Assembly: GCA_018829205.1 (NCBI GenBank)
Contig: JAHJUE010000022.1
Location: 310,001-374,000 of the forward strand
DNA length: 64,000 nt
Reading direction: 5' to 3'
Source of the DNA: Bacteroidota bacterium
Lineage (GTDB): Bacteria; Bacteroidota; Ignavibacteria; Ignavibacteriales; Melioribacteraceae
This document shows positions 4,154 to 62,074 of this stretch, piece after piece. How positions within the stretch are numbered: position 1 is the first letter of the stretch; every line of letters begins with the position of its first letter. Made by a program: the position numbers and the translations under genes. The notes under the pieces are model-generated. The model ran no database searches, was not told where the DNA came from, and was given only the letters and a program-made list of their open reading frames with translations.

Positions 4154-4981
4154 CTAGCTATTCTTTTTGATATAATCATTAAATAATTGCATCAGTTTAT
4201 TAGTCCGCTTACCTACCCTGCCGTCACCAATATTTTTTTTATCTACTGACGTAACCGGTATAATATTTTTTGTAGTAGAAGTTATAAATGCCTCATGCGC
4301 TGAATTTAACTCAGCCAAGCTGATTACCCTTTCTTCAATCTGCCAGTATTTATAAGCCAAATCAAGAATAATTTTTCTAGTAACACCTTTAAGAATAAAA
4401 TCTTTCGGAGTGACTAAAATGTCATTTATAAATATAAAAAAATTACTGCGGGGGCATTCGGTTATTGAATCATGTAATTGATATAAAACATCAAACACAT
4501 TATTTTTTTTACGCAGATCGTTTAAACGAATATCATTCAAATAATTTACTGATTTTATCATCGGCAATTCCCGCTGATATTCAAAGGATATTAATCCTGC
4601 GCCTCTTGTATATAAATCATTATGATATGTAGGTGTTTCTTCCGGTATTATTAATATATTCGGCTCAAAAACTAAGGATGATGAGTTTGAATACCCACCT
4701 GTAACAATTATTCTAATTGCGGGATCATTAAATTTACACAACTCTACTAATTTAAGTGCTGATTCGGTTAATTCAGCATCACTATATTTAATATTAAGAT
4801 TAAGCGCGCTCGAGGAGTTTCTAAGTCTTTTAAGGTGGTCGTCAAAATGAAAAAGCTTTTTATTAAATGTCCGCGCATAATCGAAAACCGCGTAACCGCG
4901 CTGAAGACCAAGGTCTCTAATGCCAATTACACTTTCGCCTTCACTTACTATATCGCCGTTTATAAAATTATAATTATCCAT
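4154..4981 (-). CDS. Class IV PLP-dependent aminotransferase (BCAT / D-amino acid transaminase / ADC lyase fold)
   Basis: Fold-type IV PLP enzyme of 275 residues. Visible features are the N-terminal FINGDIV...D.GLQRGY.VFDYARTF block, Lys143 in the IKSVNYL motif as Schiff-base lysine, and Glu175 in TECPRSNFF contacting the PLP pyridine nitrogen, followed by GVTRKIIL and the ITSTTKNIIPV motif near the phosphate. The length fits D-alanine transaminase or aminodeoxychorismate lyase better than full BCAT (about 300 or more). The motifs at hand do not separate these substrates. The start is ATG at 4979-4981. It follows the mscS-like gene on the same strand with a 57-bp gap, so read-through is possible but no functional link is evident. 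Confidence 0.85.
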   Translation of the reverse strand: MDNYNFINGDIVSEGESVIGIRDLGLQRGYAVFDYARTFNKKLFHFDDHLKRLRNSSSALNLNIKYSDAELTESALKLVELCKFNDPAIRIIVTGGYSNSSSLVFEPNILIIPEETPTYHNDLYTRGAGLISFEYQRELPMIKSVNYLNDIRLNDLRKKNNVFDVLYQLHDSITECPRSNFFIFINDILVTPKDFILKGVTRKIILDLAYKYWQIEERVISLAELNSAHEAFITSTTKNIIPVTSVDKKNIGDGRVGKRTNKLMQLFNDYIKKNS

Positions 4982-56141: not shown

Positions 56142-56768
56142 ATGTCAAAACCTCAAACAATACAAACAATAAGAGAATACAACGAGTTCAGATTTAAGGA
56201 AAAAGGGTCATTATTTATTGGTCAGGCCTTCCCGGTGGAAAACGAAGAAGAATTTAATGAGAGATTAAATCTTATTAAAAAGGAGTTTTACGACGCCACA
56301 CATCATTGTTACGCTTACAAACTGCTTGACGAAAAATTCAAATATTCCGACGACGGCGAACCGAACGGAACGGCAGGAATTAGGATTTATAACGCTATTC
56401 AGCATTTCGATCTTAAAAATACAGGCGTTGTTTCAATAAGATATTACGGCGGCACAAAATTAGGTGTGGGACCACTTGGAAAAGCCTATTATCAATCGGC
56501 ATTTACCGTATTAGAAAATTCTTCAATTTACAAAAAAGAAAAATATTCTTATTTGAAAATTATATTCAGATTTGATCAGACAAATCTTGTTCATCATCTA
56601 ATATCAAGTTTTAACGGCAGGATATCGGACAATTTATTTGAGAATAATTCCCCCGCTATTACATGTTTTGTGAAAAACAAAGCAGAAGAAAAATTTATAA
56701 ATGAATTAAAGAACAGTTCAAACGGAAGTATAGAATTAATAAAAATAAATGAGTCGTATCTGGAATAA
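56142..56768 (+). CDS. YigZ/IMPACT-family protein
   Basis: A 208-residue protein of the UPF0029/IMPACT family. The KEKGSLFIGQAFPVENEEEF start and the ATHHCYAYKL...DDGEPNGTAG...YYGGTKLGVGPLGKAY core are the family hallmark; the C-terminal half is the less conserved DUF1949-like domain. The family binds nucleic acid or ribosomes in related proteins, and IMPACT in eukaryotes regulates GCN2; the bacterial role is not settled. It is divergent from uvrA. A 16-bp palindrome lies 14 bp after its stop. Confidence 0.88.
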   Translation: MSKPQTIQTIREYNEFRFKEKGSLFIGQAFPVENEEEFNERLNLIKKEFYDATHHCYAYKLLDEKFKYSDDGEPNGTAGIRIYNAIQHFDLKNTGVVSIRYYGGTKLGVGPLGKAYYQSAFTVLENSSIYKKEKYSYLKIIFRFDQTNLVHHLISSFNGRISDNLFENNSPAITCFVKNKAEEKFINELKNSSNGSIELIKINESYLE

Positions 56769-56781
56769 TTTTAAAATCTAT

Positions 56782-56797
56782 ATAAAGATATCTTTAT
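56782..56797. promoter_or_regulatory. Perfect 16-bp palindrome, candidate distal operator
   Basis: ATAAAGATATCTTTAT is fully self-complementary and contains AAGATATCTT, the same 10-mer found at the Rrf2 promoter. The extended AAGATATCTTT form agrees with the E. coli NsrR half-site AAGATGCYTTT at nine of eleven positions. It may be a second binding site for the Rrf2 protein that allows looping. Confidence 0.4.
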
Positions 56798-56954
56798 GAT
56801 AAGAAAAATATAATCCCAAAATCTTCCCGGAATAAAAACGGAATTAAACTTAAAGATTATAAATGATAATAAATTCTTCTAAAGTAATAATAAATGGAAA
56901 TGTTAAAACGATATTAGGTTTTGTTTAATCCTTAATTTTATCAGATAAAAGGGG

Positions 56955-56964
56955 AAGATATCTT
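56955..56964. promoter_or_regulatory. Palindrome AAGATATCTT, candidate proximal operator
   Basis: This perfect 10-bp palindrome overlaps the first two bases of the TTGACA -35 element of the predicted Rrf2 promoter, a place where bound protein would block RNA polymerase. It matches the core of the 16-bp palindrome at 56782-56797. Confidence 0.45.
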
Positions 56965-56991
56965 GACAAAAAGATTTCATTTACTTATTTT
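56963..56991 (+). promoter_or_regulatory. Candidate promoter of the Rrf2 regulator
   Basis: TTGACA, a perfect consensus -35, lies at 56963-56968, and TATTTT at 56986-56991 is a moderate -10 after 17 bp. Transcription would start near 56998, leaving a leader of about 70 nt before the ATG at 57069. Confidence 0.45.
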
Positions 56992-57068
56992 TATTTTCAG
57001 ACATAGAACTCTTAAAGCGACTTTTTAATAGTATCCAAATTAACTAATTTTCATGGGGATTACGAAGA

Positions 57069-57497
57069 ATGATTTATACTAAAACCGGCGAATACGCAAT
57101 ACGTGCGATTTTGTTTTTAGCACGGCAATCAAAAGAGACATTAATTATGTCTTCCGAAATTGCGAAAAGTGAAGAAATTCCTGCACATTATCTGGCCAAA
57201 ATTCTGCAAAGAATGGCAAAATACGGATATGTCGACTCTTTTAAAGGAAGAGGCGGCGGATTTAAAATTACCGAACTAGCGAAAAAAAGCTCTATTCTTG
57301 AAATTGTTGAAAGAGTTGAAGGTCCGGTAATCAATTTAAAATGCGTAACCGGTCTTAAAGAATGTTCAGATGAAACCCCTTGTCCGCTTCATGAAGAATG
57401 GGCTGAATTAAGAAACAGGATTTATAATCTTATATCCAGTAAATCAGTTCAGGAAGTTGCGGAAAAATATACAGAGACATTAAGAAAACCCAGCTAG
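57069..57497 (+). CDS. Rrf2-family transcriptional regulator, probably Fe-S
   Basis: A 142-residue winged-helix repressor of the Rrf2 family (IscR, NsrR, CymR, RsrR). It starts with the family pattern YTKTGEYAIRAILFLA, the recognition helix is in EIPAHYLAKILQRMA, and the wing follows in GYVDSFKGRGGGFKI. Three cysteines, Cys92, Cys99 and Cys105, are spaced C-x6-C-x5-C, close to the C-x5-C-x5-C of E. coli IscR, so it probably binds a [2Fe-2S] or [4Fe-4S] cluster and senses iron-sulfur status, NO or redox. No isc/suf or NO-detoxification gene is adjacent. Autoregulation through the upstream palindromes is inferred. Confidence 0.93.
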   Translation: MIYTKTGEYAIRAILFLARQSKETLIMSSEIAKSEEIPAHYLAKILQRMAKYGYVDSFKGRGGGFKITELAKKSSILEIVERVEGPVINLKCVTGLKECSDETPCPLHEEWAELRNRIYNLISSKSVQEVAEKYTETLRKPS

Positions 57498-60270: not shown

Positions 60271-61179
60271 TTAATGTACTAATTTAGCAATTCTTTCAAA
60301 TCTGGTCGACGCCAAAAGTCTGAAAAAATCTGAAAAAGGTATTTCCGGATTCCATGACCAGTAAATAAAAAAAGCATTACCGATAATAAGATCGCGCGGT
60401 ACCACACCCCAGTAACGGCTGTCGGCGCTGTTGTCGCGGTTATCCCCCATCATGAAATAATAATCTTTCTGAATGGTGTAATGATCAGTCTCAATTCCGT
60501 TAATGTAAATTTTGCCGCCGCGTATATTAACGGCTTCAGAAGCGAATTCCCTGTTTATTATTGTCCGCCATTTTTCAACATTATCAAGGGTTAAATTTAC
60601 TTCGTCCCCTTTTCGCGGTATTCTGAACGGACCGTAATTATCCGCATTCCATCCGCTGCCTTTCGGGAATATATCAGGTACAGGCAGTCCTTCGGGTAAA
60701 ATTCCGTTTTTACGGTATTGTATATTCGGAGGAATAGGGAGCTGTTCATTATTAACAAATACAACTTTATTACGGACTTCAATAATATCGCCTGGCGTAC
60801 CAACGCATCTTTTAACATAATTTGAAATTTCAACCGGTTTAAGTTCGTCTCTGTTGCCCGGATATTCAAAAACAACTATATCTCCTCTTTTCGGATCCCG
60901 AATTTCGGGCAGCTGGAAATAAGGAAGTTCAATATTAGTAAAAGGAATATTTCTGGGAGATGAGGAACCGTAAATAAATTTATTAACAAATAAAAAATCG
61001 CCTACCAATATTGTATTTTCCATTGAAGGCGTAGGAACGCGGGATGTTTCAATTAAAAATGATTTAATCAAAAATGCCGCCACTGCCGCAAAAAGAAGAT
61101 TCTTCCAGAAATCTATAAATTTTTCTTTCGGTGTTTTCGCGGCTGCTTTTTTATTTTCGTTTGTTTTTTTTCTGAACAA
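60271..61179 (-). CDS. lepB: Signal peptidase I (second copy)
   Basis: Membrane serine protease that removes signal peptides from exported proteins. One N-terminal membrane helix precedes the catalytic Ser52 in TPSMENT; Lys123 in YVKRCVGTPGD completes the Ser/Lys dyad, and the MGDNRDNSADSRYWGVVP box E is intact. At 302 residues with a long insert it resembles Bacteroidota enzymes. The start is a TTG with GAGGC eight bases upstream; no ATG is near. It lies 16 bp after a second, divergent lepB on the same strand. Both copies keep all catalytic residues. Confidence 0.95.
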   Translation of the reverse strand: MFRKKTNENKKAAAKTPKEKFIDFWKNLLFAAVAAFLIKSFLIETSRVPTPSMENTILVGDFLFVNKFIYGSSSPRNIPFTNIELPYFQLPEIRDPKRGDIVVFEYPGNRDELKPVEISNYVKRCVGTPGDIIEVRNKVVFVNNEQLPIPPNIQYRKNGILPEGLPVPDIFPKGSGWNADNYGPFRIPRKGDEVNLTLDNVEKWRTIINREFASEAVNIRGGKIYINGIETDHYTIQKDYYFMMGDNRDNSADSRYWGVVPRDLIIGNAFFIYWSWNPEIPFSDFFRLLASTRFERIAKLVH

Positions 61180-61195
61180 AATTTTGCCTCAATTA

Positions 61196-62074
61196 TCAAT
61201 TAATAAACTGAAATATTCTTCCAAAGCGGAGCGGACTTAAAAAATTTGATATTCCGCTTACTTCAATTGAAGGGTCCCAAGACCAGTAAATCAATATTGC
61301 TTCCCCGATTATATTATCGCGCGGTACAAAACCCCAAAACCTGCTGTCGAAACTGTCATCCCTGTTATCTCCCATTACAAAAAAATAATCATTCTTAAAC
61401 GTATAATATTTTTCGGGATTGTTGTTTATATAAACCTGGTTGCCATTTACACTTACTACAGTATCGCCGTATTCCCTGTTTATTATTTCTTCCCATTGAC
61501 TGATATTTTTAACCGTTAATCTTACTGTTGAATCTTTACCCGGAATAAAAATAGGTCCGTAATTATCCTCGTTCCATCCGCTGCCTTTGGGGAATATTTT
61601 CTGATTATAAAATCCTTTCGGCGTTACTTCCGAATAATCAACAATGCCGTTTTCAGGGAATGGGAAAAGTTTATTATTAACAAAAACTCTTTTATTAATA
61701 ATTTTTAATGTATCGCCGGGTATCGCAATGCATCGTTTAATATAATTCGCGCTTTCACCGGATTCCATTTCATTAGATTTACCCGGGAACTCAAAAATAA
61801 TTATATCATTATTTTCCGGTTCAACCAACGAAGGCAAAGTAAAAAAAGGAATGCGAGTATTAGTAAACGGGAAATACTTAGGCGACGACGCGCCGTAAAC
61901 AAATTTATCTACTAATAGAAAATCCCCTGAAAGAAGAGTGTTTTCCATTGATCCGGTAGGAATTCTGAATGCCTCTATAACAAAAGTTTTAATAAAAAGC
62001 GCGGACATAACTGCCAGAAAAGCAATCTCAATAAATCTTATAAAACTTCCGTTAAGTATTTTGTTTTTTTTCAT
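61196..62074 (-). CDS. lepB: Signal peptidase I (first copy)
   Basis: Paralogue of the next gene with Ser42 in TGSMENT, Lys113 in YIKRCIAIPGD, and box E MGDNRDDSFDSRFWGFVP; all catalytic parts are kept. Residues differ at many positions throughout, so the duplication is old and both are probably active. 292 residues, one membrane anchor. It lies 103 bp after lepA, an order seen in other bacteria where lepA and lepB are paired. The two enzymes may divide labour, for example between lipid-anchored and T9SS-bound exported proteins, but the sequence does not show this. Confidence 0.95.
   Translation of the reverse strand: MKKNKILNGSFIRFIEIAFLAVMSALFIKTFVIEAFRIPTGSMENTLLSGDFLLVDKFVYGASSPKYFPFTNTRIPFFTLPSLVEPENNDIIIFEFPGKSNEMESGESANYIKRCIAIPGDTLKIINKRVFVNNKLFPFPENGIVDYSEVTPKGFYNQKIFPKGSGWNEDNYGPIFIPGKDSTVRLTVKNISQWEEIINREYGDTVVSVNGNQVYINNNPEKYYTFKNDYFFVMGDNRDDSFDSRFWGFVPRDNIIGEAILIYWSWDPSIEVSGISNFLSPLRFGRIFQFIN

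Follow-up and report, generated by a model that had tools for sequence, protein, structure and literature searches.

Closest described Rrf2 systems

The Rrf2 regulator of Desulfovibrio vulgaris and the hmc electron-transport operon are reportedly the subject of work by Keon et al. in 1997. Among the characterized members of the family, D. vulgaris Rrf2 is given as the repressor of hmc in the available text of PMC1274295. The regulator considered here, rrf2-A, is encoded in a 64,000-nucleotide window (the whole stretch of DNA that was analysed) of a Melioribacteraceae genome of 4.59 Mb in 39 contigs. It belongs to the same family and is predicted to act on an HmcB/HmcC-like module together with large multihaem cytochromes. 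In a sister family of the lineage, rrf2 also adjoins a cytochrome gene, as in the D. vulgaris pairing. The two systems differ in phylum and gene order, and the subunits encoded by the rrf2-A targets fall below the Hmc equivalog cut-offs. By analogy, the predicted pairing of rrf2-A with multihaem genes would be of the same kind as that of D. vulgaris Rrf2 with hmc.

NsrR has in common with rrf2-A its fold family, three cysteines and a dyad operator with A/T-rich ends, as far as the accessible part of PMC9338935 describes it. In the NsrR-DNA complex, the wings sit on the A/T-rich ends and no direct base contacts are described in the central 7 bp (same excerpts of PMC9338935), an arrangement that fits the A/T arms, core and N8 center of the operator proposed below. 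In contrast, the NsrR motif in the available text of PMC1274295, gATGyAT-N5-ATrCATc, differs from RGA-N8-TCY, and the rrf2-A protein scores 40.9 bits against the NsrR equivalog where the cut-off is 182. The best equivalog-type NCBIfam match is to IscR (78.6 bits, short of the 207.55 cut-off), with which rrf2-A shares three cysteines and a histidine. The cysteine spacing is X6/X5 in rrf2-A compared to X5/X5 in IscR, and unlike IscR, rrf2-A has no isc or suf genes beside it.

Within the lineage itself, the BadM/Rrf2 protein Mros1101 of Melioribacter roseus was suggested as regulator of the nos operon (PMC3534657, in part). While of the same lineage and family, Mros1101 corresponds by context to a paralogue in the present genome that precedes cytochrome c and nosZ genes. 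It is a nitrogen-oxide paralogue and not rrf2-A, which goes unmentioned in the available portion of PMC3534657. A description of the regulon proposed here was not found in the open-access literature searched.

Against this background, and with a probability of roughly 0.7, rrf2-A may be considered an autoregulated Rrf2 repressor, probably Fe-S-sensing, that controls a quinol-to-multihaem-cytochrome chain in Melioribacteraceae.

The rrf2-A gene and protein

The gene has the following position:

57069..57497, plus strand: rrf2-A, a 142-residue Rrf2-family regulator with C92, C99, C105 and H108 (PF02082, TIGR00738)

It is preceded by a YigZ-family gene that ends at 56768 and followed by a convergent O-methyltransferase gene. 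Further along the window (60271-62074, minus strand), two tandem signal peptidase I-like paralogues of 302 and 292 residues were recognized by eye.

An earlier note on the window had placed an Rrf2 protein with Cys92, Cys99 and Cys105 behind the promoter, and this is borne out. The rrf2-A product matches PF02082 at 107 bits (cut-off 30) and TIGR00738 at 114 bits (cut-off 73.3), placing it in the Rrf2 family, and all three cysteines are present. In an alignment of 35 Rrf2 proteins, C92 and C105 are invariant while C99 and H108 occur in at least 90% of the sequences. The protein has the three-cysteine sensor loop of Fe-S-binding Rrf2 sensors. Since the three cysteines are conserved, Fe-S sensing by rrf2-A is plausible, and the conservation of C92, C99, C105 and H108 suggests a bound cluster.

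Orthologues were sought in 58 related genomes, which make up family f1 (34 genomes), its sister family f2 (5) and family f3 (19). They were identified at 75-96% identity in 37 of the 58, comprising 32 of the f1 genomes, all five f2 genomes and none from f3. The orthologue records of at least 74% identity that carry a name belong to Melioribacteraceae, Melioribacter, Stygiobacter and other Ignavibacteria, and the remainder are labelled just Bacteroidetes, Chlorobiota or bacterium. Rrf2 paralogues resemble rrf2-A at only about 30-40%. Maintained over 37 genomes and two families, the identity of rrf2-A points to an unusually strong constraint for a regulator.

A conserved dyad over the predicted transcription start

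The upstream regions of 101 rrf2 orthologue loci were collapsed by their last 100 bp into 70 distinct regions, with one locus short of upstream DNA (L204) counted as a miss. From these regions and an alignment of 37 orthologue promoters, three features were assigned in the window:

56963..56968, plus strand: -35 element TTGACA, found exactly within 150 bp of the start in 62 of the 70 distinct regions and in the 37-promoter alignment
56986..56992, plus strand: -10 element TATTTTT, of the form TAnnTTT, 17 bases past TTGACA in the promoter alignment
56992..57019, no strand: proposed operator with the core AGA-N8-TCT at 56999-57012, overlapping the predicted transcription start

The promoter is the one read earlier as TTGACA-17-TATTTT, with TATTTT at 56986-56991. 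In the 37 orthologue promoters, TTGACA is followed after about 17 bases by TAnnTTT and then by an RGA element. The leading T of the -10 element is present in 36 of 37 promoters, the A in all 37 and the positions of the TTT in 29-36. The RGA element begins 32-37 bases (mostly 35-36) past the start of TTGACA and commonly takes the form RGAYA-N5-HTC. Read as a dyad, the conserved element is RGA-N8-TCY with A/T-rich arms. Its core in the window is AGACATAGAACTCT, and the arms TTTCAGA and TCTTAAA are complementary at six of seven positions, making an imperfect dyad. The promoter and dyad (RGA-N8-TC) together were matched in 51 of the 70 regions, a count that is descriptive more than a test since the expression was built on 37 of those promoters. 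When the sequence after the promoter was shuffled, dyad matches averaged 1.7 and reached at most 8 of 70 regions.

A dimer of rrf2-A would bind this (A/T-rich)-RGA-N8-TCY-(A/T-rich) dyad over the start of transcription from the TTGACA-17-TAnnTTT promoter. Because the dyad overlaps the start, the bound protein should block initiation, which suggests repression; rrf2-A may instead be an activator. The autoregulated switch of the earlier note is therefore retained in part: rrf2-A probably does regulate its own gene, but through this dyad at the start point and not through the repeated 10-mer AAGATATCTT on which that switch had been built.

Recurrence of the site before multihaem genes

The pattern TTGACA-N16-18-TAnnTTT-N5-9-RGAYA-N5-HTC was searched in the 58 genomes and gave 23 matches compared to one for the reversed pattern. 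Eleven of the matches stand before rrf2. The 12 others stand before multihaem cytochromes c (five), before an HmcB/NrfC-like Fe-S gene that is followed by an NrfD-like gene (three; NrfD assigned by eye), before a REC-GcvH gene (one), before a cytochrome c gene with a NosZ-like gene behind it (one, in f3; by eye), inside an open reading frame (one) or at an unassigned position (one). Family matches were run for five of the proteins next to these non-rrf2 matches.

A sequence-only model, R1, was then trained on 19 promoters, 12 from rrf2 and seven from other genes. R1 matches the rrf2-A promoter at 56961-57015 with 34.6 bits. In the genome of the window, it identified only two confident sites, one on contig C38 (E = 7e-11) and that of rrf2 (E = 4e-7), with the next match at E = 0.02. 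In 45 further genomes of the family (G058-G102), many of them congeneric with training genomes, all matches listed at E ≤ 1e-4 came to 42 in 28 genomes. The next gene was rrf2 in 24 cases, an HmcB-like Fe-S gene in 10 and a multihaem cytochrome c in six; the remaining two matches were cut by a contig end, one of them in a gene whose beginning is that of a multihaem gene. Genes of any other type were absent behind the 42 matches. The out-of-sample target sites number 17, of which 13 are distinct, and two of the 13 are identical to a training site.

A third search used a matrix made from rrf2 promoters alone. Its 34 sites came from the 37 orthologues with the core placed by eye (L034, L052 and L053 were left out), and it was run at p ≤ 0.05 on the 350 bp before homologues of the target genes. 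The sample consisted of all 27 Fe-S matches and one locus each from 30 of the 37 genomes with a multihaem match. In f1, a site was found before 8 of 19 Fe-S genes and 7 of 14 multihaem genes, as opposed to 1 of 8 and 0 of 12 in f3, which has no close rrf2-A. Combined, the rates are 15 of 33 and 1 of 20 (Fisher p = 0.0015), and unrelated upstream regions gave 7 of 150. The absolute rate is biased, as the gene families were picked because some of their members had matches; this affects the f1-f3 contrast less, both families having been searched with one and the same pattern. For 18 of the 33 f1 homologues, no site was found directly upstream.

In all five f2 genomes, the next gene after rrf2, 13-24 bp on and on the same strand, encodes a cytochrome whose fetched part has 15-16 CXXCH motifs. 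None of the four f2 cytochrome genes tested with the matrix has a site directly upstream, perhaps because the site sits before rrf2, from where it would control both genes. The tandem is absent from the 32 f1 loci, one of which lacks a downstream open reading frame. From the f2 tandem and the shared sites, an Rrf2 gene lies beside, or is predicted to control, a multihaem cytochrome or NrfD-type complex.

Further targets in the genome of the window were also sought with the operator alone. The rrf2 site itself ranked eighth (E = 1.8), six of 16 matches lay within open reading frames, and the extra targets were rejected. One of its weak sites precedes a ferredoxin-NADP-reductase-like gene (C15:305742, E = 1.4; named by eye). 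Another operator-like site (C1:8113-8137, locus L318, E = 0.18) lies between a peroxiredoxin-like gene, also recognized by eye, and a divergent gene, and could be a second type of target or chance.

The multihaem cluster on contig C38

The C38 site (C38:126300) is located between two divergent gene sets of a multihaem system. The first set encodes a NapC/NirT-type cytochrome (six CXXCH motifs) along with a GcvH-like, an HmcB-like Fe-S and an HmcC/NrfD-like membrane protein; beyond these lie genes for a protein that by eye is kinase-like and for a response regulator of the sigma-54 type. The second set encodes a cytochrome with 19 CXXCH motifs, a cytochrome b, a protein of 869 residues, a c554-like cytochrome, a protein of 425 residues that resembles an outer-membrane barrel (no confident family), and cytochromes with 14 and 10 CXXCH motifs. 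The target subunits are related to those of Hmc, with scores below the equivalog cut-offs for HmcB (243 bits of 420), HmcC (333 of 550) and HmcA (37 of 400). The cluster fits a quinol-to-periplasm chain, the last step of which is possibly extracellular. The 869-residue chain (L122:12282-14891) presents 18 CXXCH motifs and a C-terminal membrane domain of the cytochrome b561 type. In relatives, contig C37 of genome G012 (loci L062 and L123) encodes a protein in which a GcvH domain is fused to a response-regulator receiver domain, and such receiver-GcvH-like genes directly precede a multihaem cytochrome gene in L123 and L126.

For M. roseus, a route from an NrfCD module through multihaem cytochromes to a hypothetical Fe(III) reductase was proposed, and no regulator is named alongside it in the available part of that paper (PMC3534657). 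A term search of the accessible text of a later multi-omics paper (PMC5492636), whose section 18 concerns oxygen reductases, found neither Rrf2 nor multiheme/multihaem.

With the site at its own start recurring before the genes of the multihaem chain, rrf2-A probably controls both itself and that system. Its targets would be its own gene and a single respiratory system, made up of large multihaem cytochromes c and an Fe-S plus NrfD module resembling HmcB/HmcC; a cytochrome b and a porin-like protein go with them in the genome of the window. DNA binding would probably be set by a cluster on Cys92, Cys99, Cys105 and perhaps His108, and oxidant or Fe-S status would thereby switch the multihaem chain. 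Melioribacteraceae have large multihaem cytochrome clusters, and the proposed regulator, operator and target set would offer a direct handle on the switch of such a chain, putting a testable regulon in the place of a chance motif.

A broader proposal is put forward tentatively and may well be wrong. Rrf2 control of quinol-to-multihaem-cytochrome conduits could be an old module common to several phyla, with the founding member of the family, Desulfovibrio Rrf2, repressing hmc and the Melioribacteraceae Rrf2 gating an Hmc-like, porin-linked and possibly extracellular chain via a newly recognized operator, AWWNRGA-N8-TCYNWWT. If true, an Fe-S redox sensor would decide when an Fe(III)- or electrode-directed chain is built.

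Rrf2 paralogues and a second predicted operator class

The genome of the window has six Rrf2 genes, two of which are clustered on contig C24 with genes for NrfA, NrfH, NosZ and RIC, all above NCBIfam cut-offs. The intergenic gaps of this cluster carry AATCAGA-N8-TCTGATT dyads or variants; in locus L248 (C24:8000-27900), dyad sites occur at 4698, 4851, 8990, 9570 and 17850. The nrfHA, cytochrome c-nosZ and RIC cluster is predicted to be a nitrogen-oxide Rrf2 regulon. R1 also matched dyads of this paralogue class before a nirK gene and, in genomes of all three families, at the starts of Rrf2 paralogues. In the paralogue class, the base that flanks the core is C/G; at the target sites of the rrf2-A class (class A), A or T predominates.

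The nitric oxide reading of the earlier note is better placed here. The nrfHA, nosZ and RIC genes carry the other operator class and stand beside two Rrf2 paralogues, and none of the 42 out-of-sample class A matches precedes a nitrogen-oxide or NO-stress gene, the type of target that NsrR regulates. From sequence, the NO-type regulon appears to belong to the paralogues of rrf2-A. One genome would thereby set apart two Rrf2 operator classes, one for multihaem respiration and the other for nitrogen oxides.

The paralogues also supply the strongest competing explanation, namely that one of the other five Rrf2 proteins, or a different redox regulator, binds the dyad and that rrf2-A is no more than one of its targets. 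There are candidates enough among the six Rrf2 genes, the paralogue-class dyads share the core, and the left half-site of the window is itself CAGA, as in the paralogue class. The RGA-N8-TCY dyad is found at the own start of several Rrf2 genes of the lineage, which supports Rrf2 proteins in general as the binders. However, the target sites track rrf2-A in particular, being found in f1 and nearly absent from f3, which has Rrf2 paralogues; the f2 tandem of rrf2 with a cytochrome gene points to rrf2-A as well, and the bases that flank the core separate the two classes. Binding by another regulator is accordingly unlikely, and rrf2-A remains the preferred candidate.

Covariation of the dyad arms

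Covariation was analysed in a set of 28 sites, consisting of 17 target sites of class A and 11 sites of the paralogue class. The bases adjacent to the core pair in 22 of the 28 sites, where 9.6 would be expected if they were dealt at random. At the second arm position, 20 pair (12.3 expected), and one further out, 19 (13.1 expected). In the 13 distinct out-of-sample target sites, the first position pairs in 11 compared to 7.3 expected (p = 0.035) and the second in 9 compared to 5.5 (p = 0.041). The 34 sites of rrf2 itself are imperfect dyads with no covariation outside the core, an argument against rrf2 itself having a clean palindrome.

These data bear on the suggestion that the conserved element, instead of being an operator, is a promoter or 5' leader signature of the lineage. 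The promoter itself indeed accounts for some of the conservation, and the element lies at the expected start point. A general signature should not be confined as this one is, with two own-genome matches of the composite below E = 0.02 and out-of-sample matches that fall only on rrf2 and electron-transfer genes, and the covariation of its arms resembles that of a dyad bound by protein. The suggestion is thus improbable, and an operator for rrf2-A is favored. When the promoter part was searched by itself in the genome of the window with two mismatches allowed, 11 matches were obtained, of which only that of rrf2 was exact, and a reversed control gave eight; a general promoter signature was rejected.

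The repeated palindromes

Two further features had been proposed as the switch of rrf2-A and are judged to lie outside it:

56782..56797, no strand: perfect 16-bp palindrome, whose AAGATATCTT is present in 1 of 70 regions; the window has 5 such palindromes compared to 3.2 by chance
56955..56964, no strand: second copy of AAGATATCTT, not conserved

As a description, the proposal was accurate. A scan of the window located AAGATATCTT at 56785-56794, enclosed by the 16-bp palindrome, and at 56955-56964, sharing two bases with TTGACA, and nowhere else. The E. coli NsrR half-site, as quoted in that proposal, agrees with the first palindrome at 9 of 11 bases.

As an operator, AAGATATCTT fails on both its frequency and its conservation, the two grounds that the earlier note had itself named for a refutation. 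There are 18 sites in 4.59 Mb, compared to 12 for a reversed control and about 19 expected when the figure for the shuffled window is scaled up, and the 16 sites beyond the window all fall within open reading frames of at least 100 codons. Upstream of rrf2 orthologues, the 10-mer is present in one of the 70 distinct regions, which is that of the window, and in six when up to one mismatch is allowed. A loop between the two copies bound by an NsrR-like NO/Fe-S sensor, despite the presence of both 10-mers, one touching the promoter, and of three conserved cysteines in the protein, can be set aside as very improbable given this lack of enrichment and conservation, the NsrR score and the lack of nitrogen-oxide genes among the 42 matches.

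Within the window, two copies of AAGATATCTT were seen where 0.27 were expected, and two or more occurred in 3 of 100 shuffles. The 16-bp palindrome was ruled out as a special structure from the count of perfect palindromes of at least 16 bp given above, for which the chance figure comes from shuffles. Repeated 10-bp palindromes at most 200 bp apart number three in the window, whereas 40 shuffles averaged 0.3 and never gave more than 2, so that close pairs are slightly unusual, though this is not the only one in the window. It is by coincidence, in an AT-rich genome, that the palindromes match.
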